Part shown: positions 10,836 through 63,389 of the stretch, piece by piece
How the letters are laid out: the number at the start of each line of letters is the position of its first letter
Position numbering within the stretch: the first letter of the stretch is position 1
From: Lampris incognitus
Taxonomy: Eukaryota; Chordata; Actinopteri; Lampriformes; Lampridae
Direction: 5' to 3'
DNA length: 64,000 nt
Assembly (NCBI RefSeq): GCF_029633865.1
Contig: NC_079211.1
Span: 8,110,415 to 8,174,414 of the forward strand
Notes under the pieces: generated by a model
The model's database searches: none
The model's input: the letters and a program-made list of their open reading frames with translations, nothing else
What the model was told of the DNA's origin: nothing
Program-made: the position numbers and the translations under genes

Positions 10836-11186
10836 CCGCTTTAATTTGTGATTGTCGCTTACAACGAATTATATTCTTAGAATGAATGCGCTGTCTGCAT
10901 TTAACCCATCCTATTGTACAGGAGCACCGGGCAGCTGCAGTACATGGGACCAACTCCAGTTCTTCTTTGCTACTGCCTTGCTCAGGGGCGCAGACAGGAG
11001 TATTAACCCTCACATGTATGTCTTTTGGATGGCGGGAGGAACCCAGAACTCCTGGAGGAAACCCACGCAGACACGGGGAGAACATGCAAACTCCACACAG
11101 AAAGGACCTGGGCCAGCATGGGGTTCGAACCCAGGATCTTCTTGCCGTGAGGCGACAGTGCTGCCCACTGGGCCGCCGTGCTGCCC
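10836..11186 (-). mobile_element. SINE family B-prime (tRNA head, non-L2 tail)
   Basis: On the minus strand the copy begins GGGCAGCACGGCGGCCCAG, has a B box (GGGTTCGAACCC) and the words GAGTTTGCATGTTCTCCCCG and TGCGTGGGTTTCCTCC. It then switches to a tail with GGGTTAAATGCAGACAGC. The head is the same as SINE B at 30177 but the tail differs. A second copy of this form is at 44538. Confidence 0.82.
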
Positions 11187-12903: not shown

Positions 12904-13055
12904 CTTAACGACCACGGATGCCTAGATTCGCTAGCCGGTTGGCTAACGGGTCGGACCCTTTAGTCGACTGGTTAGCGCAGTCGCCCGTGGTGCGGTAGAC
13001 CCGGGTTCGTGTCCCGGCTGCGGCGGTTCCCGGTTGGCCCCTGAATTTTTCTGCA
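12904..13055 (+). mobile_element. TRIM-like LTR, type I, 5' copy
   Basis: This LTR of the miniature retroelement reads (C)TTAACGACCACGGATGCC to CTGCA; the other two type I LTRs start TGTAACGACCACGG. It contains a tRNA-like core with an A-box-like word (TAGTCGACTGGTTAGCGC, near 12961) and a B box (GGGTTCGTGTCC). It is followed directly by a primer-binding-site-like sequence. Confidence 0.75.
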
Positions 13056-13074
13056 TTGGTGTCAGAAGTGGGAT
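13056..13074 (+). other. Primer-binding site, tRNA-Leu type
   Basis: TTGGTGTCAGAAGTGGGAT stands directly after the LTR. From its second base it is the complement of ...ATCCCACTTCTGACA-CCA, which I recall as the 3' end of a vertebrate tRNA-Leu (CAA type). Confidence 0.7.
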
Positions 13075-13149
13075 GGTGAGGCCATCAGAAGTGCGTGCAT
13101 CCAGAGGCGTGAGGCAGCTGGTATGCTGAAGCGCAGGGGCGCGCTTCCC

Positions 13150-13164
13150 AAAGGAGGGGGGTAG
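13150..13164 (+). other. Polypurine tract before 3' LTR, type I
   Basis: AAAGGAGGGGGGTAG ends directly at the TGTAAC start of the next LTR, the place and composition expected for plus-strand priming. Confidence 0.65.
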
Positions 13165-13292
13165 TGTAACGACCACGGATGCCTAGACTCGCTAGCCCTC
13201 GGCTAACTGGTCGGACCCTTCAGTTGACTGGTTAGCGCAGTCACTCGTGTTGTGGGCAACCCGGGTTCCCTTCCCGGCTGCCCCCTGAATTT
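13165..13292 (+). mobile_element. TRIM-like LTR, type I, 3' copy
   Basis: It starts TGTAACGACCACGG and is homologous to the LTR at 12904 throughout. A small deletion removes the LTR end and the first half of the following primer-binding-site word, leaving AAGTGGGATGGTGAG. That leftover internal sequence shows that a further unit once followed. Confidence 0.75.
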
Positions 13293-13334
13293 GCAAGTGG
13301 GATGGTGAGACCATGAGGCCACTTCTGACGCCAA

Positions 13335-13472
13335 TGTAGCGAATTCCGGGGGCAGCCGGGAATCGAGCCCGGGTATATCCCCGCACCACAGGCGACTGCA
13401 CTAACCAGTCAACTAAAGGGTCCGACCCGTTAGCCAACGGGCTAGCGAGTCTAGGCATCCGTGGTCGTTACA
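13335..13472 (-). mobile_element. TRIM-like LTR, type I, inverted copy
   Basis: A complete LTR of 138 bp lies in opposite orientation (plus strand ends CGTGGTCGTTACA). Its primer-binding site is at 13319-13334 (CCACTTCTGACGCCAA on plus). The B box reads GGGCTCGATTCC on the minus strand. The arrangement with 13165 is tail to tail. Confidence 0.78.
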
Positions 13473-13541
13473 TATACATAGTACTTCAACACAAAGGCTC
13501 CTGAATGACCTCTTCTGGGACAGCGTCACTGCAAACCTCGG

Positions 13542-25745: not shown

Positions 25746-26300
25746 AGCGAGCTCCTCACAGTGTGCGCAGCAGTACAGTTCATTCTCAGGTGTGGACGGG
25801 GTGTGTTGATGATTAGCCCGTGTTTGAGTAACTGCTTTGTAATTACATTTTCCACATCACAGGATGAGCCTCGTACTCGCTCTTGGCTCGCCACCGCTCT
25901 TCGCCAGTATGCCAACATAGCAGGCTGCTGCTGCTGCCATGTAACGATTAGGGCCGGGGAACTGGGCGTTAACCTCCTTTAAAGCTCCGTTTTGCTACAC
26001 ACTTTAAACGAGTTTCGCCTCAGAATATATTAATGTTTTAATTATTTGGCACTCTGCAGAGAACAGCACACTATCTAATAACACTGCTGGTGTTGGTTCC
26101 TACGACTGTCCTCACGTAAAACGCCACTATTGTCTGTGTCTACTACCGCATCCTCCTTTTATCTGCACTTCACACTTCGTGTTCTTACGACGACAGCCTG
26201 TCCGTCATACTGATATGCATCAATGGGAATCTATTTTGTACAATGATTCTGCTATTCGCCACTTCTTTACGATTCAAGACACTTACACAAAATACACTCG
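25746..26300. other. Unique sequence between two tandem arrays
   Basis: No repeat or exon is recognised. It contains a short CTG run at 25924-25938. Confidence 0.45.
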
Positions 26301-26307
26301 GGTTGAC

Positions 26308-27431
26308 ATGGCAGCGCAAATTCACGTTTGCGGTGGCCTCACCCAGTACCAGTGTGGGAAGATGGCGGCGCGAATTCACGTTTGCGGCGGCCTCACCCAG
26401 TACCAGTGTGGGAAGATGGCGGCGCGAATTCACGTTTGCGGCGGCCTCACCCAGTACCAGTGTGGGAAGATGGCAGCGCAAATTCACGTTTGCGGCGGCC
26501 TCACCCAGTACCAGTGTGGGAAGATGGCGGCGCGAATTCACGTTTGCGGCGGCCTCACCCAGTACCGGTGTGGGAAGATGGCAGCGCAAATTCACGTTTG
26601 CGGCGGCCTCACCCAGTGCCGGTGTGGGAAGATGGCGGCGCGAATTCACGTTTGCGGCGGCCTCACCCAGTACCGGTGTGGGAAGATGGCAGCGCAAATT
26701 CACGTTTGCGGCGGCCTCACCCAGTACCGGTGTGGGAAGATGGCGGCGCGAATTCACGTTTGCGGCGGCCTCACCCAGTACCGGTGTGGGAAGATGGCAG
26801 CGCAAATTCACGTTTGCGGCGGCCTCACCCAGTACCGGTGTGGGAAGATGGCGGCGCGAATTCACGTTTGCGGCGGCCTCACCCAGTACCGGTGTGGGAA
26901 GATGGCAGCGCAAATTCACGTTTGCGGCGGCCTCACCCAGTGCCGGTGTGGGAAGATGGCGGCGCGAATTCACGTTTGCGGCGGCCTCACCCAGTACCGG
27001 TGTGGGAAGATGGCAGCGCAAATTCACGTTTGCGGCGGCCTCACCCAGTGCCGGTGTGGGAAGATGGCGGCGCGAATTCACGTTTGCGGCGGCCTCACCC
27101 AGTACCGGTGTGGGAAGATGGCAGCGCAAATTCACGTTTGCGGCGGCCTCACCCAGTACCGGTGTGGGAAGATGGCGGCGCGAATTCACGTTTGCGGCGG
27201 CCTCACCCAGTACCGGTGTGGGAAGATGGCAGCGCAAATTCACGTTTGCGGCGGCCTCACCCAGTACCGGTGTGGGAAGATGGCGGCGCGAATTCACGTT
27301 TGCGGCGGCCTCACCCAGTACCGGTGTGGGAAGATGGCGGCGCAAATTCACGTTTGCGGCGGCCTCACCCAGTACCGGTGTGGGAAGATGGCGGCGCAAA
27401 TTCACGTTTGCGGCGGCCTCACCCAGTACCG
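26308..27431 (+). repeat. 54-bp tandem array (about 21 units) with YY1-type motif
   Basis: The unit is 54 bp and starts at each ATGGC (26308, then every 54 bp, with the last at 27388 incomplete). Core words are AAGATGGCGGCGCGAATTCA, GTTTGCGGCGGCCTCACCC and AGTACCGGTGTGGG. Two variants largely alternate: GGCGGCGCGAATT and GGCAGCGCAAATT. This makes a 108-bp dimer over much of the array. Because 54 is divisible by three and the unit has no stop codons, several long frames are open on both strands; I do not regard them as genes. AAGATGGCGGC matches the known YY1 binding pattern. The same unit occurs about twice at 31484-31590, also directly upstream of repeat C. Confidence 0.92.
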
Positions 27432-27835
27432 TCCATGCAGTGTTTTTGTCCACGTCTAAGTTGGCCTTCGTTTGATGGCTGGGGGAGCTGGCGCTGGATC
27501 GGATGGGAGAGCTTGGTCTGCTGCGTCCTGTGGGCCCAGGGACCACGGCCCTGCCCAGAGCTTTGCCCCAGGAGGCAACACCGAGGGCGGTCTGACAGCA
27601 CCCGGAAGCGGGGCAGGCTAAGCTAACTGCTAGCCCATGCAGACCGGCAGTTCCGACAGTCACCATGGCTGGCGTTGGTTCTCCTGGACAGTGATTTTTT
27701 TTTGTTTAGTTTATAGATATATGTGTTAGTTTGGATATGTGTGTTCTTGTAGTTTTTGGATATGTGTTTTTGTCCTTGTGTTGCACTGCTGTGGGCTGGG
27801 GGAAACGACAAATAAAGTGTTTCTGATTCTGATGT
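27432..27835 (+). mobile_element. Dispersed repeat C body, copy headed by the 54-bp array
   Basis: It begins GTCCATGCAGTGTTTTTG directly after the last 54-bp unit and continues GGCTGGGGGAGCTGGCGC, GGGCCCAGGGACCACGGCC, TGCAGACCGGCAGTTCCG and GCACTGCTGTGGGCTGGG. It ends at ACAAATAAAGTGTTTCTG-ATTCTGATG. The terminal polyadenylation-like signal and ATTCTGA tail fit a retroposon mobilised by a CR1/L2-type LINE. Homologous bodies are at 9287 (minus) and 31591 (plus). There is no convincing reading frame. Confidence 0.75.
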
Positions 27836-32628: not shown

Positions 32629-34257
32629 CTGTGGCTTGCAAAAGTATTCATACCCCTTGAACTTTTCCACATTCTCTCACGTTTCGACCACAAACATAAA
32701 AATATTTTATTGGAATTTTATGTGAAAGACCAACACAAAGGGGCACACAATTGTGAAGTACAAAGAAAATTATACATGATTTAAAATTCTTTTTACAAAT
32801 AAAAAACTGAAAAGTGCGGCGTGCAAAAGTATTCAGCCCCCCTGAGTCAATACTTTGTGGAACCGCCTTTTGCTGCAACTACAGCTGCAAGTCTTTTGGG
32901 GTATGTCTCTACCAGCTCTGCACATCTAGAGACTGAAATTTTGCCCATTCTTCTTTGCAAAACAGCTCAAGCTCAGTCAGATTAGATGGAGAGCGTTTGT
33001 GAACGGCAGTTTTCAGATCTTGCCACAGATTCTCAGTTGGATATAGGTCTGGACTTTGACTGGGCCATTCTAACACATGAATATGTTTTGTTTTAAACCA
33101 GTCCATTGTAGCTTGGGCTTCATGTTTAGGGTCGTTGTCCTGCTGGAAGGTGAACCTCCACCCCAGTCTCAAGTCTTTTGCAGACTCCAACAGGTTTCCT
33201 TCCAAGATTGCCCTGTATTTGGCTCCATCCATCTTCCCATCAACTCTGACCATCTTCCCTGTCCCTGCTGAAGAGAAGCACCCCCAGAGCATGACGCTGC
33301 CACCACCATGTTTGACAGTGGGGATGATGGTGTGTTCAGAGTGATGTGCAGTGTTAGTTTTCCGCCACACATAGCGTTTTGCATTTACGCCAAAAAGTTC
33401 AATTTTGGTCTCATCTGACCAGAGCACCTTCTTCCACATGTTTGCTGTGTCCCCCACATGGCTTCTGGCAAATTGCAAACGGGACTTCTTATGGTTTTCT
33501 TTTAACAATGGCTTTCTTCTTGCCACTCTTCCATAGAGGCCAGATTTGTGCAGTGCACGACCAATAGTTATCCTGTGGACAGATTCTCCCACCTGAGCTG
33601 TGGATCTCTGCAGTTCATCCAGAGTCACCATGGGCCTCTTGGCTATCTCTGATCAGTGCTCTCCTTGTTCGGCCTGTAAGTTTAGGTGGACGGCCGTGTC
33701 TTGGTAGGTTTGCAGTTGTGCCATACTCTCTCCATTTCCGGATGATGGATTGAACAGTGCTCCGCGAGATGTTCAAAGTTTGGGAAATCTTTTTATAGCC
33801 TAACCCTGCTTTAAACTTCTCCACAACTTTATCCCTGACCTGTCTGGTGTGTTCCTTGGACTTCATGATGCTGTTTGCGCCCCGATATTCTCTTAACAAA
33901 CCTCTGAGGCCGTCACAGAACAGCTGCATTTGTACTGAGATTAGATTACACACAGGTTGACTCTATTTAGTCAGTAGGTCAACATTCGATCATTCAGCGA
34001 TCATCAGGCAACTTCTGAAGGCAATTGGTTGCACTCAGAGAAAAGGGGGCTGAATACTTTTGCACACCGCACTTTTCCGTTTTTTATTTGTAAAAAATTT
34101 TTGAAATCATGAATAATTTTCTTTGTACTTCCCAATTGTGTGCCACTTTGTGTTGGTCTTTCACATAATATTCCAATAAAATGTATTTATGTTTGTGGTC
34201 GTAACATGACAAAATGTGGACAAGTTCAAGGGGTACGAATACTTTTGCAAGCCACTG
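32629..34257 (-). mobile_element. Complete Tc1-like transposon
   Basis: The 1,629-bp element has terminal inverted repeats of about 210 bp and duplicated TA at 32627-32628 and 34258-34259. The ends read CTGTGGCTTGCAAAAGTATTC-like at the left and the complement of CAGTGGCTTGCAAAAGTATTC at the right. Each inverted repeat has two direct copies of GCAAAAGTATTC (outer at 32638, inner at 32824, with mirror positions at 34057 and 34237). This is the IR/DR layout of many fish Tc1-like elements. One transposase gene lies inside on the minus strand. Confidence 0.95.
32846..33866 (-). pseudogene. Tc1-like transposase, frameshifted
   Basis: The DDE transposase cuts and pastes the element at TA. The reading frame begins at 33866 (MKSKEHTRQ) and shows the paired-type helix-turn-helix DNA-binding region (KKISQTLNISRSTVQSIIRK) and a basic GRPPKL hook. 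The catalytic core has all three acids: D in LWSDETK, D in QQDNDPKH and E in PTENLW, with 34 residues between the last two. Two lesions break it. Near 33643 one base is missing before AAKRP-type sequence, and near 32935 another is missing, after which the C-terminal end to a TGA at 32846-32848 is in a different frame. The span of 1,021 bp, plus two bases, equals 340 codons and a stop, the family's usual size. Both losses look recent and simple. Inactive as it stands. Confidence 0.92.
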
Positions 34258-44537: not shown

Positions 44538-44873
44538 TACAAGTTACAATGAAATTTGTTCTCTGCATTTAACCCCTCCTATTGCATAGGAGGGGTTAAA
44601 TGCATGCCCATAGTGGGCAGCAGCAGTACCTGGGGACCAACTCCAGTTCTTCTTTCCATTGCCTTGGTCAGGGGCACAAACAGGAGGATTAACCCTAACA
44701 TTAATCTCTTTCTGATGGTGGGAGGAAACCGGAGCACAAAGAGGAAACCCACACAGACATGGGGAGAACATGTAAACTCGACATAGAAAGGACCTGGGAT
44801 GGCCTGGGGTTCGAAACCAGGACCTTCTTGCTGTGAGGCAACAGTGCTAACTACTGGGCCATCGTGTCACCCT
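44538..44873 (-). mobile_element. SINE family B-prime inside the L1-Tx1 fragment
   Basis: The minus strand begins AGGGTGACACGATGGCCCAG, with B box TGGTTTCGAACCCC. The body has GTTTCCTCC and the tail GGGTTAAATGCAGAGAAC, as in the copy at 10836. Within the tail, a short inverted repeat (CCCCTCCTATTGCATAGGAGGGG) is present. Confidence 0.82.
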
Positions 44874-44875
44874 AA

Positions 44876-44993
44876 GCTTACAGTACCTGGTATTCCCAGG
44901 CGGTCTCGCATCCAAGTACTAACCAAGCCTGACCCTGCTTAGCTTCCAAGAGAAGCTGACATCGGGCGCTATCAGGATGGTATGGCCGTAAGC
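44876..44993 (-). pseudogene. 5S rRNA-like sequence
   Basis: The 118-nt sequence on the minus strand begins GCTTACGGCCATACCA and ends GGTACTGTAAGC, the start and end of vertebrate 5S rRNA, with the internal control region near AAGCAGGGTCAGGCTTGG. Several changes are in the body (for example GATGTCAGCTTCTCTTGGAA, where functional 5S has GATCTCGTCTGATCTCGGAA). It sits two bases from the head of SINE B-prime and in the same orientation, within the LINE. It is either a 5S-derived SINE head joined to a tRNA-type SINE or a separate 5S pseudogene. No terminal T run follows. Confidence 0.88.
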
Positions 44994-49639: not shown

Positions 49640-50345
49640 CTATTTCTTACACTTTATTTGGGTAGCAACACGCTTTACCCAAGTAAAGTGTGTTGCTACA
49701 ATCAAGTCAAGAACAGATAAAATCATGTACAACTTTTTGCAGATCAGCAATTGATAAAAATGACCTAATTTAGAGATTAGCTTGAGCTGAAGAAAGCACG
49801 ACTGAACAACATATTTGATTTCATTATCAAAACTGAGGTTAGCCTTGAATATTACCCCAAGATTCCTAGCAGTCTGCTTAAGACTACCTGACAGACCACC
49901 AAGATTGGTACCAAAAGGGCTGATGGACTTTGGGGGACTGAATAGAATGACCGCAGACTTATCATCATTAAATTTAAGAAAAATTTTGGACATCTGGGAT
50001 TTAATGTCAGAGAGGCAAGTTGTGAGATTTGCTAGGGCACTAGGATGTGTGGGTTTTAGTGGCATGGATAACTGAGTGTCGTCAGCATAAAAATGGTGAA
50101 ACACATCATGATTTTGAATGACCTGGCCAAGGGGCAGCACGTGTATAGAAAACAGAAGGGGGCCAAGGACTGAGCCTTGAGAGACACCACAACTCAACTG
50201 AGTCATCAAGGAAGTTGAGTTACCCAGAACAACAGAACAAGTTCTGTTGGAGAGGTAAGACCTAATAAACTAAGAGCCGAGCCCTTGATGCCAACCCAAG
50301 TCTCTAAGCGATGTAAGAGGATACTAAACAACCTACTGGCCAGAC
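49640..50345 (-). mobile_element. L2/CR1-group LINE reverse-transcriptase fragment
   Basis: A 189-codon minus-strand frame (50209-49640) has SCGVSQGSVLGPLLFSIHVLPLG, HHFYADDTQLSMPL (catalytic YADD), LKFNDDKSAVILFSPP and ARNLGVIFKANLSFDNEI, the usual RT blocks 4 to 7 of this group. The upstream part to 50345 continues with stops. The catalytic motif is intact but both ends are lost. Confidence 0.82.
49662..49699. repeat. 38-bp hairpin at a LINE boundary
   Basis: GTAGCAACACGCTTTAC and GTAAAGTGTGTTGCTAC pair over 17 bp with one G-T, around a CCAA loop. It lies where the L2-like and RTE-like fragments meet. Confidence 0.85.
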
Positions 50346-54299: not shown

Positions 54300-55418
54300 C
54301 ATCTGCTGATTGGAAATGGAGGAATTAAGCTCCAACCACCCAGCCTGTCAACACCACCTCTGGCTCCTAGGGTGGTGAAAGCAGAGCTACTCTGAGAAGG
54401 ACACCCGTTTAGGCTTTCCCCGTCTGACAGTGGAGGCACTGGACTGTCTGTTTTGGACAGGACACCCACCCGCTTTCTGTCAGGTTAGAAATCTGGGTCA
54501 GAGTTTCTGTTTGGGCAGAGGAAGGGATGAGGGATGGGGTTGAGTTTTGAGTGGTGCTGGAGTCTTTATTTGGACTGGGGTAACCTCAAGCGGGCGCTCT
54601 TTGGGTTTGTATCCTCTCTTTTTGCCAGTTGTGGCGCCATTCCTCTCCTTGGCTTTGATCCGATTGTCCTCCATTGCTTTGCTCTTGTTGCTTGAGACTA
54701 CATGGCTGGCAGCTGCCCGGAACCAGTTCTGAGAGTGTGTCTTGCTGATGTGGTACTTGACGCCACTCTCTGAGCTGAACTCCTTCTGACAGATCAGACA
54801 GGTATATTTCCCCATCTCGCTGGCTGCAGTTCGCTAGGTGGGCTTTGAGTTCTGACACGTTGGAATAAACAACTTCACAATTTCTGTTGGTGCAGAAGAT
54901 AAAGCCATTCTCCTTGACTTCATTCTTCCACGTCTCCAACAGCTCAGGACTAAAGTTAGGAAAGCCTGGTTGGATGTAGTTTAACCTCTTGCTGTCAGGA
55001 ACCAGGTCATCCTTGATGCAGTGCTTGGTGCCTCAGTCCTTGGCCAACTCATCCTCAGCTACCTCCTGCAGGTGAAACACCACCACTGGGCCAACCAGCA
55101 CCTCACTCTGCCACTGGGGGTATGCTCAAAGTCCTTCTCCAGGCTATCATTCTGTGCTGCTCCCTTTCTGTCTTGTTCTCGCTCCCTCTGTCTCTCCCTC
55201 TGCCTGGCCTCCCTCTCCTTCTCCATGGGCTGGCCCGCTGATGCCTTCTCTTGCCACTCCTTCCTCTCAGGCTGGCTCTTCTGCTTCCTGCCTATTAATG
55301 GAGGTTCCCCAGAGATTACCTCGGTGCTGTGTTCAGCCATGGTGTGGGAGTTGACACCGGCCTTGGATCTGAACTGTTCGTGGCACTGCTGGCACTTCAG
55401 GACATCCTGGAGTTCCAT
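54300..55418 (-). pseudogene. ZNF512/ZNF512B-like zinc-finger gene fragment
   Basis: On the minus strand from 55418: [27 protein letters not shown] (C2H2 finger), GEPPLIGRKQKS, a long basic-acidic coiled segment (EKEREARQRERQ...), then [80 protein letters not shown] (C2H2 finger) with [12 protein letters not shown], and [14 protein letters not shown]. This order and wording match, from memory, the C-terminal half of vertebrate ZNF512/ZNF512B, a nuclear DNA-binding protein. Breaks: a shift near 55090, a TGA at about 55020 in 'AKD-stop-GTKHC', and a shift near 54820. No intron-like gaps separate the homologous blocks. It is joined directly to NAB1-like sequence upstream. Confidence 0.75.
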
Positions 55419-55962
55419 TTTGATCCTTTTAAGAGAAGTTTAATCCTGTTTCCACAGAGGGACATGCTTGTGTGGTAAGTGTATTTGAAGGTGACTTCTC
55501 CAGAGATCTGGTGGGTGAGTCCAAACAGCTCGTCACGCCGGGTCAAGAGAGCCATGTCCCTCATACACAGCTGGGCTGCCGCCTCGTTGACTGTTGGCTT
55601 GTGAAATGTCATGTGTTTGCCATCTCTCCTCTTGGAGTCGAAGCATCCATAGATGGCACTGTATTTAAGAATAGCCTTTTTGCTGCGTGGGTCATCGTTG
55701 GCTATCTCGAAGATGTGGCTGATCATCTTGGCCATCTTCTTGTTGTTCTTAAGCAGCTCCTTCACCTCAGCCGGGTTGATCTTGGGCAGGCCTGCCATCA
55801 TCCTGTCCACACACTCCAGAACCAACTGGACCGCTGCCACATCCAGCACCCCCAACCGTTCACGGGGCAAGCAGGGTGAGCCCAGGCCAAACGGCGACAG
55901 ACTCTGTTCAGTCATTGCTGTGACATGACCAAAAGTGCGCTTTGCTACTGCTCTGCAGGGGT
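55419..55962 (-). pseudogene. NAB1-like NCD2 domain fragment
   Basis: A minus-strand frame (55915-55397) reads [85 protein letters not shown] and [20 protein letters not shown]. These match, from memory, the NCD2 repression domain of NAB1, a co-repressor of EGR transcription factors. Upstream, across a one-base shift, [14 protein letters not shown] also looks homologous and follows CACCCCTGCAG, which could be a splice acceptor or simply coding sequence. The NAB1-like sequence stops near 55425 and ZNF512-like sequence follows without a gap. Gene capture or a fused retrocopy are both possible. Confidence 0.75.
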
Positions 55963-57890: not shown

Positions 57891-58601
57891 GAAAAAAACA
57901 AGGCCAACCAGGCAGATACTGGGATACTGCTCGTCCATGGCTAATACTCACATCAACCTCACCAGGCTACTCTTGCAACATTCATGGACAACAGAGGCCA
58001 CACGTAGCCTAACGTTACTCCTGAGCTGAGAGGCAAACAAACAGGAGCTCGGCGACGTCCATCGGCTCATTAGCGTTGGCGCCGCTCAACTGATTCAAGG
58101 CAGAAACAAAGGCGCCGTCTAATGACGTCGCTCCGAGGCGACGCGGTACGCTCCGTCTTAAAGGTACATTTCACAATTTCGACCGTTACAGCGCACATTT
58201 AGCTTGCGGAGGCGGAAACTACGGAAGCTGCACGCCGCCACCACGGAAACCGAAACCAACTTTAGCGCGAGTGAAAGTGATTTAGGAACCGACAGGCAGA
58301 ATCGACATTTGAATTTCTTAACGATTCCTTTGGAATCGGGATTTTGGAACCGGTTCCTCTCGATGCTCAACCCTACCAACATGGGTCCCTGTCTTGTTAT
58401 TGTAACCGGGTATTTTCTTGCCCGGTGCGGGATTCGATACGGAAGTACTGCACCACAAGGCGACGTCACTAACCGCTCGGCTAAAGGGTCAGACCCGTTA
58501 GCTAGGGGGCTAACGTGTCTTATTAGTAGTTTACAGTCGTCACCCTCCCCGGAAGCGCGCCCTCGCTCCGAAGAGACTTCTGAGGATCCGCACACTTCCG
58601 G

Positions 58602-58620
58602 ATCCCACCGCTGCCACCAA
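58602..58620 (-). other. Primer-binding site, tRNA-Leu type
   Basis: TTGGTGGCAGCGGTGGGAT, from its second base, is the complement of ATCCCACCGCTGCCA-CCA, which I recall as the 3' end of a vertebrate tRNA-Leu (AAG/TAG type). It begins one base after the LTR. Confidence 0.75.
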
Positions 58621-58651
58621 TGTAACCGGTTATTTTCTTGCCCGGTGCGGG

Positions 58652-58725
58652 ATTCGATACGGGGTGTACTGCACCACAAGGCGACATCACTAACCGCTCG
58701 GCTAAAGGGTCAGACCCGTTAGCTA
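58652..58725 (-). promoter_or_regulatory. tRNA-like segment with A and B boxes inside the LTR
   Basis: On the minus strand: TTTAGCCGAGCGGTTAG fits the A-box consensus TRGCNNAGYNGG closely, and GTATCGAATCC fits the B box GGTTCGANTCC with two differences. They are spaced as in tRNA genes, with TTGTGGT as a possible anticodon loop between them. The same pair exists in every LTR of the family in this window. Confidence 0.7.
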
Positions 58726-59044
58726 GGGGCTAACGTGTCTTATTAGTAGTTTACATTATGAACCATCTACTTAAACTGTCACAACCCCCCCCTTGTGACG
58801 TAGACTTTATTAACAGTGTTAGTCATATGTTGCATATAATAAATGATGGAAAATTACTCCAATTCTGAATACCTTTATTTGTGTAACATAAAATGGATTA
58901 GTGCAATAATGAAGTATACTATGTGCAAAGTTCACAGTACCAATGTAGTGCAAATACAACAGGTAAAAGAAGTAAAGTGGCAGTGTAACTTTCAAGCACC
59001 GACGGTTCAAGTAAAAGGCTCTAGTAGTGACACATTTCTGCCCA

Positions 59045-62837: not shown

Positions 62838-62934
62838 ACTCCCTGACTTTAGTCGCGCTGTTAGCAATGTCGCCTTGTGGCGCAGAACACCTCGGATCGA
62901 ACCCCGCGCCGGGCGAGAAAATAGCTCGCTTACA
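62838..62934 (+). mobile_element. Diverged TRIM-like LTR remnant
   Basis: TTTAGTCGCGCTGTTAGC, ATGTCGCCTTGTGG and GGATCGAACCCCGCGCC, with a TCGCTTACA end, correspond to the LTR of the element at 58401. The left third is absent, and a decayed AAGGTGTTGCC follows where the primer-binding site would be. Confidence 0.65.
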
Positions 62935-63026: not shown

Positions 63027-63385
63027 CTTACAGTCACGTTAGTACCTAGCTAACGGGTCCGACCCTTTAGCGGAGCGGTTAGTGATGTCGCCTTGTGGTG
63101 CAGTACACCTCGTATCGAATCCCGCACCGGGCAAGAAAATAACCGGTTACATTGGTGGCAGCGGTGGGATCCGGAAGTGTGCGGATCCTCAGAAGTCTCT
63201 TCGGAGCGCGGGAATAGCAAAGCGCGAGGGCGCGCTTCCGGGGAGGGTGACGACTGTAAACTACTAATAAGACACGTTAGTCCCTAGCTAACGGATCTGA
63301 CCCTTTAGCCGAGCGGTTAGTGATGTCGCCTTGTGGTGCAGTACACCCGGTATCGAATCCCGCACCGGGCAAGAAAATAACCGGT

Positions 63386-63389
<4 letters not shown>
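63027..63389 (+). mobile_element. TRIM-like miniature LTR retroelement, type II, second copy
   Basis: The 5' LTR (about 63027-63151) is eroded at its left end. The primer-binding site TTGGTGGCAGCGGTGGGAT is at 63152-63170. The interior is 103 bp, 18 bp longer than at 58536 (extra CGGGAATAGCAAAGCG-like sequence). The polypurine GGGGAGGGTGACGAC leads to a 135-bp 3' LTR at 63255-63389. Directly after it comes (AT)n. No TTAT-type duplication can be judged because both flanks are altered. Confidence 0.88.

Follow-up and report, generated by a model that had tools for sequence, protein, structure and literature searches.

A Helenus-type miniature LTR retroelement with a putative tRNA-like promoter in a fish genome

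The segment 58401..58755 of the window, which is the whole stretch of 64,000 nucleotides analysed here, is a real, complete miniature LTR element (TRIM) on the minus strand. The family to which it belongs is quite probably a Helenus-type TRIM, that is, a noncoding element with a tRNA-like internal promoter in its LTR, whose RNA polymerase III (Pol III) transcript would be copied by a Gypsy helper.

The element (copy 1) measures 355 bp and consists of two direct LTRs of 135 bp, each with TG...CA ends, and an internal region. In element orientation, the 5′ LTR occupies 58621..58755 and the 3′ LTR 58401..58535, both on the minus strand, and the pair shows 95.6% identity in an alignment of 136 columns. 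The primer-binding site (PBS; 58602..58619, minus strand) starts one base past the 5′ LTR and is complementary at 18/18 nt to the 3′ end of tRNA-Leu-AAG. The purine tract GGGGAGGG (58543..58550, minus strand) lies seven bases before the 3′ LTR, and the terminal stretch of the internal region reads GGGGAGGGTGACGAC. The target duplication TTAT is present at both ends (left, 58397..58400; right, 58756..58759). The minus strand carries all the signals of copy 1, namely A box, B box, PBS, and purine tract, and no coding region belonging to the element was found. Thus, the features that characterize a TRIM are present together: paired LTRs, a short internal region, a total length below 1 kb, no coding capacity, and a PBS and a purine tract placed immediately internal to the 5′ and the 3′ LTR, respectively. 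The preliminary description had proposed the LTR pair with its terminal dinucleotides, the position of the PBS, the polypurine tract, the TTAT duplication, the lack of a coding region and the extent of 355 bp, and all of these were recovered here; it left the strand unstated, which is the minus strand.

The PBS of copy 1 and of its close relatives, hereafter lineage A, is TGGTGGCAGCGGTGGGAT. All of its 18 nt agree with the tRF-Leu-AAG inhibitor printed in a table of PMC9161985; that inhibitor is the reverse complement of its target and hence antisense to the tRNA-Leu-AAG 3′ fragment. A second lineage (B) carries in its window copy the PBS TGGTGTCAGAAGTGGGAT, and the fragment complementary to it is credited, in a passage of the review PMC12025293, to a paper on tRNA-Leu-CAA. 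Lineage A therefore matches Leu-AAG and lineage B Leu-CAA, both within the set of primers (His, Leu or Lys) of vertebrate Helenus.

Further members of the family were found in the window. Copy 2 of lineage A (63032..63389, plus strand) has a 5′ LTR without its first bases, a PBS at 63153-63170 (plus strand), and a 3′ LTR at 63255-63389 (plus strand); it adjoins the relic of an old and diverged LTR whose A and B boxes are degenerate (62847..62934, plus strand). Lineage B extends over 12905-13473 in the order LTR-internal-LTR-scrap, followed by an inverted LTR. Its first LTR and internal region are at 12905..13164 (plus strand), with the PBS matching tRNA-Leu-CAA at 13057-13074 (plus strand); the second LTR continues into a remnant of the PBS and internal region (13163..13296, plus strand), and the inverted LTR (13334..13472, minus strand) gives a fold-back. 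Judged from their sequences, lineages A and B are sister lineages, with homologous LTRs and internal regions that align. A third LTR variant, lineage C, occurs in locus L050 of the assembly. The fold-back arrangement, in which an inverted LTR comes after LTR-internal(-LTR), was seen in the window copy of lineage B, in L109 and, for lineage A, in L052; such copies could be products of reverse-transcription snap-back, self-integration or nested insertion.

Other features of the window were annotated as well. An exon of a NAB (NGFI-A-binding) family gene lies at 55397-55915 on the minus strand (Pfam NCD2, E 4e-46), and its best named match, which covers 61% of the query at 69% identity, is from perch. 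The minus strand also contains a Tc1-type transposase fragment (32909-33631) and a reverse-transcriptase fragment (RVT_1; 49640-50209). At 26185-27666, a tandemly repeated unit is covered by open frames on both strands; the array is likely a minisatellite.

The family is abundant in the 1.48-Gb assembly that contains the window. With the 355-bp element as query, the first look found 1,356 candidates, and scoring of 40 among them yielded 45 matches; 43 of the 45 were near full length, with 84-100% identity, in a sample that favours young, complete copies because the scored matches are the best ones. Exact patterns were counted over the whole genome: the PBS occurred 2,268 times, the 27-mers spanning the LTR-PBS-internal junction 1,556 times, and the 24-mers of the LTR end 4,503 times, while the reversed pattern gave 0 in each case. 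The copy number is well over a thousand. For lineage B, a 569-bp query gave 6,844 first-look candidates, of which 40 were scored. Eleven lineage-B loci besides that of the window all had a PBS with at most one mismatch (11/11); an exact duplication was present in 2/11, and the right end was not found in 4/11. The microbial and viral contig collections gave 0 matches to the LTR pattern, and the viral contigs 0 matches to the PBS pattern, as expected from collections that hold microbes and viruses. The distribution along contig C1 was uneven: no exact LTR-PBS junction occurred from 56.66 to 92.55 Mb (36 Mb), and 91 of the 100 listed junctions lay in the preceding 53 Mb. The junction-free 36 Mb is possibly a heterochromatic region.

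The structure of the copies was examined at 41 loci (39 retrieved regions plus the two window copies), which comprise 45 LTR-internal-LTR units; since the units were picked by this structure, their LTR pairing is by construction. The internal regions measure 70-107 bp, and the divergence of the LTR pairs ranges from 0.018 to 0.118 (K2P), with a median of 0.054. The PBS begins one base past the LTR in 42/45 units and has 0 mismatches in 23 units, 1 in 16, 2 in 5, and 8 in the remaining one, so that 44/45 fall within 0-2. The purine tract is likewise kept across the 45 units, as judged from the 16-mer listed for each. Target duplications were counted at 31 loci, after exclusion of the 10/41 without an intact outer end. 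Exact duplications of 4 bp, the length described for animal Helenus, flank 20/31, and a further 7/31 match in three of four bases; exact 5-bp duplications were found in 0/31. In the control, which combined left and right flanks from different loci, 4-bp identity arose in 14/930 pairs.

Samples were also taken by position. For two of the exact patterns, the PBS and the LTR end, these were the first 30 places along contig C1; they include the window's own copies (in the PBS set), array neighbours and sometimes both LTRs of one element; with this composition, the PBS places had an internal region in 30/30 and both LTRs in 24/30, and the exact LTR ends comprised 18 within elements (nine in 5′ LTRs, eight in 3′ LTRs, and one mid-array) and 12 solo or other. 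Eleven of these 12 are complete, and 5/11 have an exact 4-bp duplication. The preliminary description called for such a count of full elements, solo LTRs, and duplications, and in these samples the copies do not mostly lack pairs or duplications. Paired LTRs, a tRNA-Leu PBS, 4-bp duplications and solo LTRs, found genome-wide, strongly support the replication of a noncoding TRIM by the LTR route, and with it this half of the hybrid suggested earlier. Retrotransposition would take place in trans, because the element encodes nothing.

It is scarcely credible that the element is instead a SINE, spread by a LINE and tandemly duplicated by chance. The arrays of the form LTR-internal-LTR-internal-LTR at 4/41 loci would agree with tandem duplication, but the 4-bp duplications, TG...CA ends, PBS, purine tract and solo LTRs argue against a SINE, whose duplications are longer and variable in length. 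Moreover, the tRNA-like segment of the LTR is not convincingly nearer to the SINE heads of the window than box-preserving shuffles are: four segments compared with 10 heads gave no convincing excess in 40 comparisons, and the best score was reached by 2/200 shuffles, in one of the 40. Regarding these SINEs, the heads at 1670, 14944, 19420, 23425, 29763, 36867 and 51658 apparently form one tRNA-derived family with good A and B boxes, and those at 11175, 30188 and 44858 belong to another family. On the minus strand at 44791-44993, a full-length 5S rRNA match (81.8 bits) is directly followed by a tRNA-like SINE head, an arrangement that looks like a two-headed 5S-tRNA SINE.

The candidate promoter lies in both LTRs of copy 1, on the minus strand. 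The 5′ LTR contains the A box TAGCCGAGCGG at 58694..58704 and the B box GTATCGAATCC at 58650..58660; in the 3′ LTR the A box is at 58473..58483 and the B box at 58430..58440. Against the consensus used for scoring, the A box has 0 mismatches and the B box 2, and the gap between them is 32-33 bases, which is tRNA spacing. A and B boxes at this spacing within the LTR are what is expected of a Helenus element. Pol III use of the LTR is likely, considering this anatomy and the precedents discussed below.

Could the boxes be chance matches in an LTR without tRNA ancestry? This seems very unlikely to us. No dinucleotide shuffle reached the real score for either LTR of copy 1 (0/500 each), and the same test on six other LTRs of the window gave 0, 0, 1, 2, 7 and 18 of 500. 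The likeness between the LTR segments of lineages A and B extends beyond the boxes, being equalled by 0/200 shuffles, and lineage B retains a T-arm-like stem around the B box, as read from the sequence. In favour of chance, 47/3,855 segments of 135 bp, drawn at random from the window with the TRIM copies excluded, score as well as copy 1, and so do nine other places in a full scan of the window, though these look like heads of the two SINE families; furthermore, a covariance model for tRNA finds no match. Boxes and spacing are present, yet ARAGORN detected no tRNA and the Rfam tRNA model gave no match at E up to 10. The weak Rfam matches within that limit belong to other families: in lineage B, a microRNA family gives the best one (E 0.033), located in the inverted LTRs, and VA RNA matches across a B box (E 3.8). 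Of the LTRs folded, two from lineage A were no more stable than their shuffles (z -1.2 and -1.4), and two from lineage B were more stable, with long hairpins (z -3.3 each).

A more serious alternative, although an unlikely one, is that RNA polymerase II transcribes the element as it would any ordinary TRIM, and that the tRNA-like stretch is a promoter-dead relic, e.g. of a SINE that inserted long ago into an ancestral LTR. In 88 lineage-A LTRs (90 LTRs minus two shorter than 120 bp), the A box is perfect in 79 and the B box has at most 2 mismatches in 82. In the positional sample of 30 LTR ends, selected through an exact match immediately downstream of the B box, the A box is intact in 28/30 and the B box has at most 2 mismatches in 29/30. 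This intactness speaks against a relic. On the other hand, the boxes are not clearly better conserved than the remaining LTR: in lineage A, 28/125 eleven-column windows are as well conserved as the A-box stretch and 14/125 as the B-box stretch. Between lineages, the A box agrees at 7/11 bases for A-B, 7/11 for A-C and 5/11 for B-C; the B box at 8/11, 10/11 and 9/11, respectively; and the inter-box segment at 27/33, 27/33 and 26/35. The poor A box of lineage C (locus L050), the two bases by which the lineage-A B box departs from the consensus, and the missing tRNA-model match also suit a relic. The promoter proposed in the preliminary description is upheld in part: the boxes occur in nearly all sampled lineage-A LTRs, but they show no clear extra conservation, and the Rfam tRNA model gives no match.

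Two further observations weigh against RNA polymerase II and a dead promoter. Neither AATAAA nor TATAAA was found in the two LTRs of copy 1. In addition, the sense strand is free of T4 runs in 44/45 units (a run in 1/45), and the antisense strand has T4 in 44/45. With almost no T4 on the sense strand, Pol III could read straight through the element, and the first downstream T4 is at a median distance of 129 bases in the 28/41 loci with one inside the retrieved flank. The rarity of T4 may merely reflect composition, as the LTR has AAAA on that strand. In one lineage-B LTR of the window there is a T5 near the end, where, by its sequence, the transcript might end early.

For the Helenus-type TRIM that we prefer, the following cycle is proposed. 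We infer that Pol III would bind the A and B boxes of the 5′ LTR and initiate some 10-20 bases upstream of the A box. Since T4 stop signals are almost absent from the sense strand, the polymerase would continue across the internal region and 3′ LTR and terminate in the flanking DNA. The reverse transcriptase and integrase that copy this RNA would come from an autonomous LTR element, probably of the Ty3/Gypsy type. A leucine tRNA would prime at the PBS, the first strand would jump to the 3′ LTR, the purine tract would prime the second strand, and integration would produce the 4-bp duplication.

The helper of the fish element is probably a Ty3/Gypsy element. Kojima 2024 (PMC10886601) infers Gypsy as the helper, and animal Helenus share the PBS with Gypsy elements. 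In the present genome, Gypsy-type RNase H domains gave 22,550 first-look candidates, of which 150 were scored. The 2.5-kb upstream piece of one Gypsy copy contained the PBS of neither lineage, with 6-7 mismatches at best, and around the five listed Gypsy places on C1 below 46.5 Mb no exact lineage-A PBS was present within 10 kb. As a working idea, held tentatively and with somewhat more doubt than confidence, we suggest that the hybrid depends on one unbroken Pol III transcript spanning both LTRs, with stops kept off the sense strand, and that the switch between Leu-AAG and Leu-CAA follows two Gypsy helpers. If this is true, the choice of helper could be read directly from the PBS.

These results make this vertebrate genome a good place to test the Pol III drive expected of Helenus, since it combines well over a thousand copies, LTR pairs down to 1.8% diverged and a uniform promoter. 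The same genome is also suited to finding the autonomous element that serves Helenus. In practical terms, such TRIM copies can mislead the annotation of tRNAs and SINEs.

The hybrid of a tRNA-type promoter and an LTR, which the preliminary description put forward without judging its novelty, is already in print. Helenus was described by Kojima 2024 (PMC10886601) as TRIMs whose LTR contains a tRNA-like A box and B box, found in fungi, animals and one plant, and was grouped with Cassandra as TRIMp3. In that paper, animal Helenus have 4-bp duplications, the primers of vertebrate families are tRNA-His, -Leu or -Lys, a functional tRNA is predicted for few Helenus, and Pol III transcription is stated as unvalidated (PMC10886601). 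Among fish, relatives of LTR-11_DR are reported from Cypriniformes, one catfish and milkfish; zebrafish has 5,575 LTRs, 2,618 internal regions and tandem arrays, and other families are reported from sturgeon, paddlefish and coelacanth (PMC10886601). The fish family studied here agrees with the testable features of Helenus, tRNA homology and the Gypsy helper aside, and is most appropriately placed in that group, as a TRIMp3.

The closest known system is Helenus, above all its LTR-11_DR group of ostariophysan fish, compared here by its published description. Both are noncoding TRIMs with tRNA-like boxes in the LTR, a PBS for a tRNA 3′ end (Leu being among the vertebrate ones), a purine tract, 4-bp duplications, tandem arrays and solo LTRs, and the group reaches thousands of copies in zebrafish. 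Compared with the group as so described, the genome studied here differs in that it contains two linked lineages, each with a PBS for its own Leu isoacceptor. Cassandra, a plant TRIM, is also a noncoding LTR element with a Pol III promoter, putative in the fish element, inside the LTR; its promoter is derived from 5S rRNA and its transcription validated (PMC10886601), whereas that of the fish element is tRNA-like and predicted. Ajax, a nemertean TRIM and proposed TRIMp3, shares a small-RNA sequence in the LTR and a tRNA-Leu PBS but has a 5S-derived sequence and 5-bp duplications, as given in the same source (PMC10886601). With tRNA-derived SINEs the fish element has in common the split A/B-box Pol III promoter, predicted here, but SINEs are without LTRs or PBS and spread through LINE target-primed reverse transcription. 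To this known kind of element our analysis makes modest additions, namely two homologous lineages with Leu-AAG and Leu-CAA primers, counts of solo LTRs and duplications, and a sense strand nearly free of T4.
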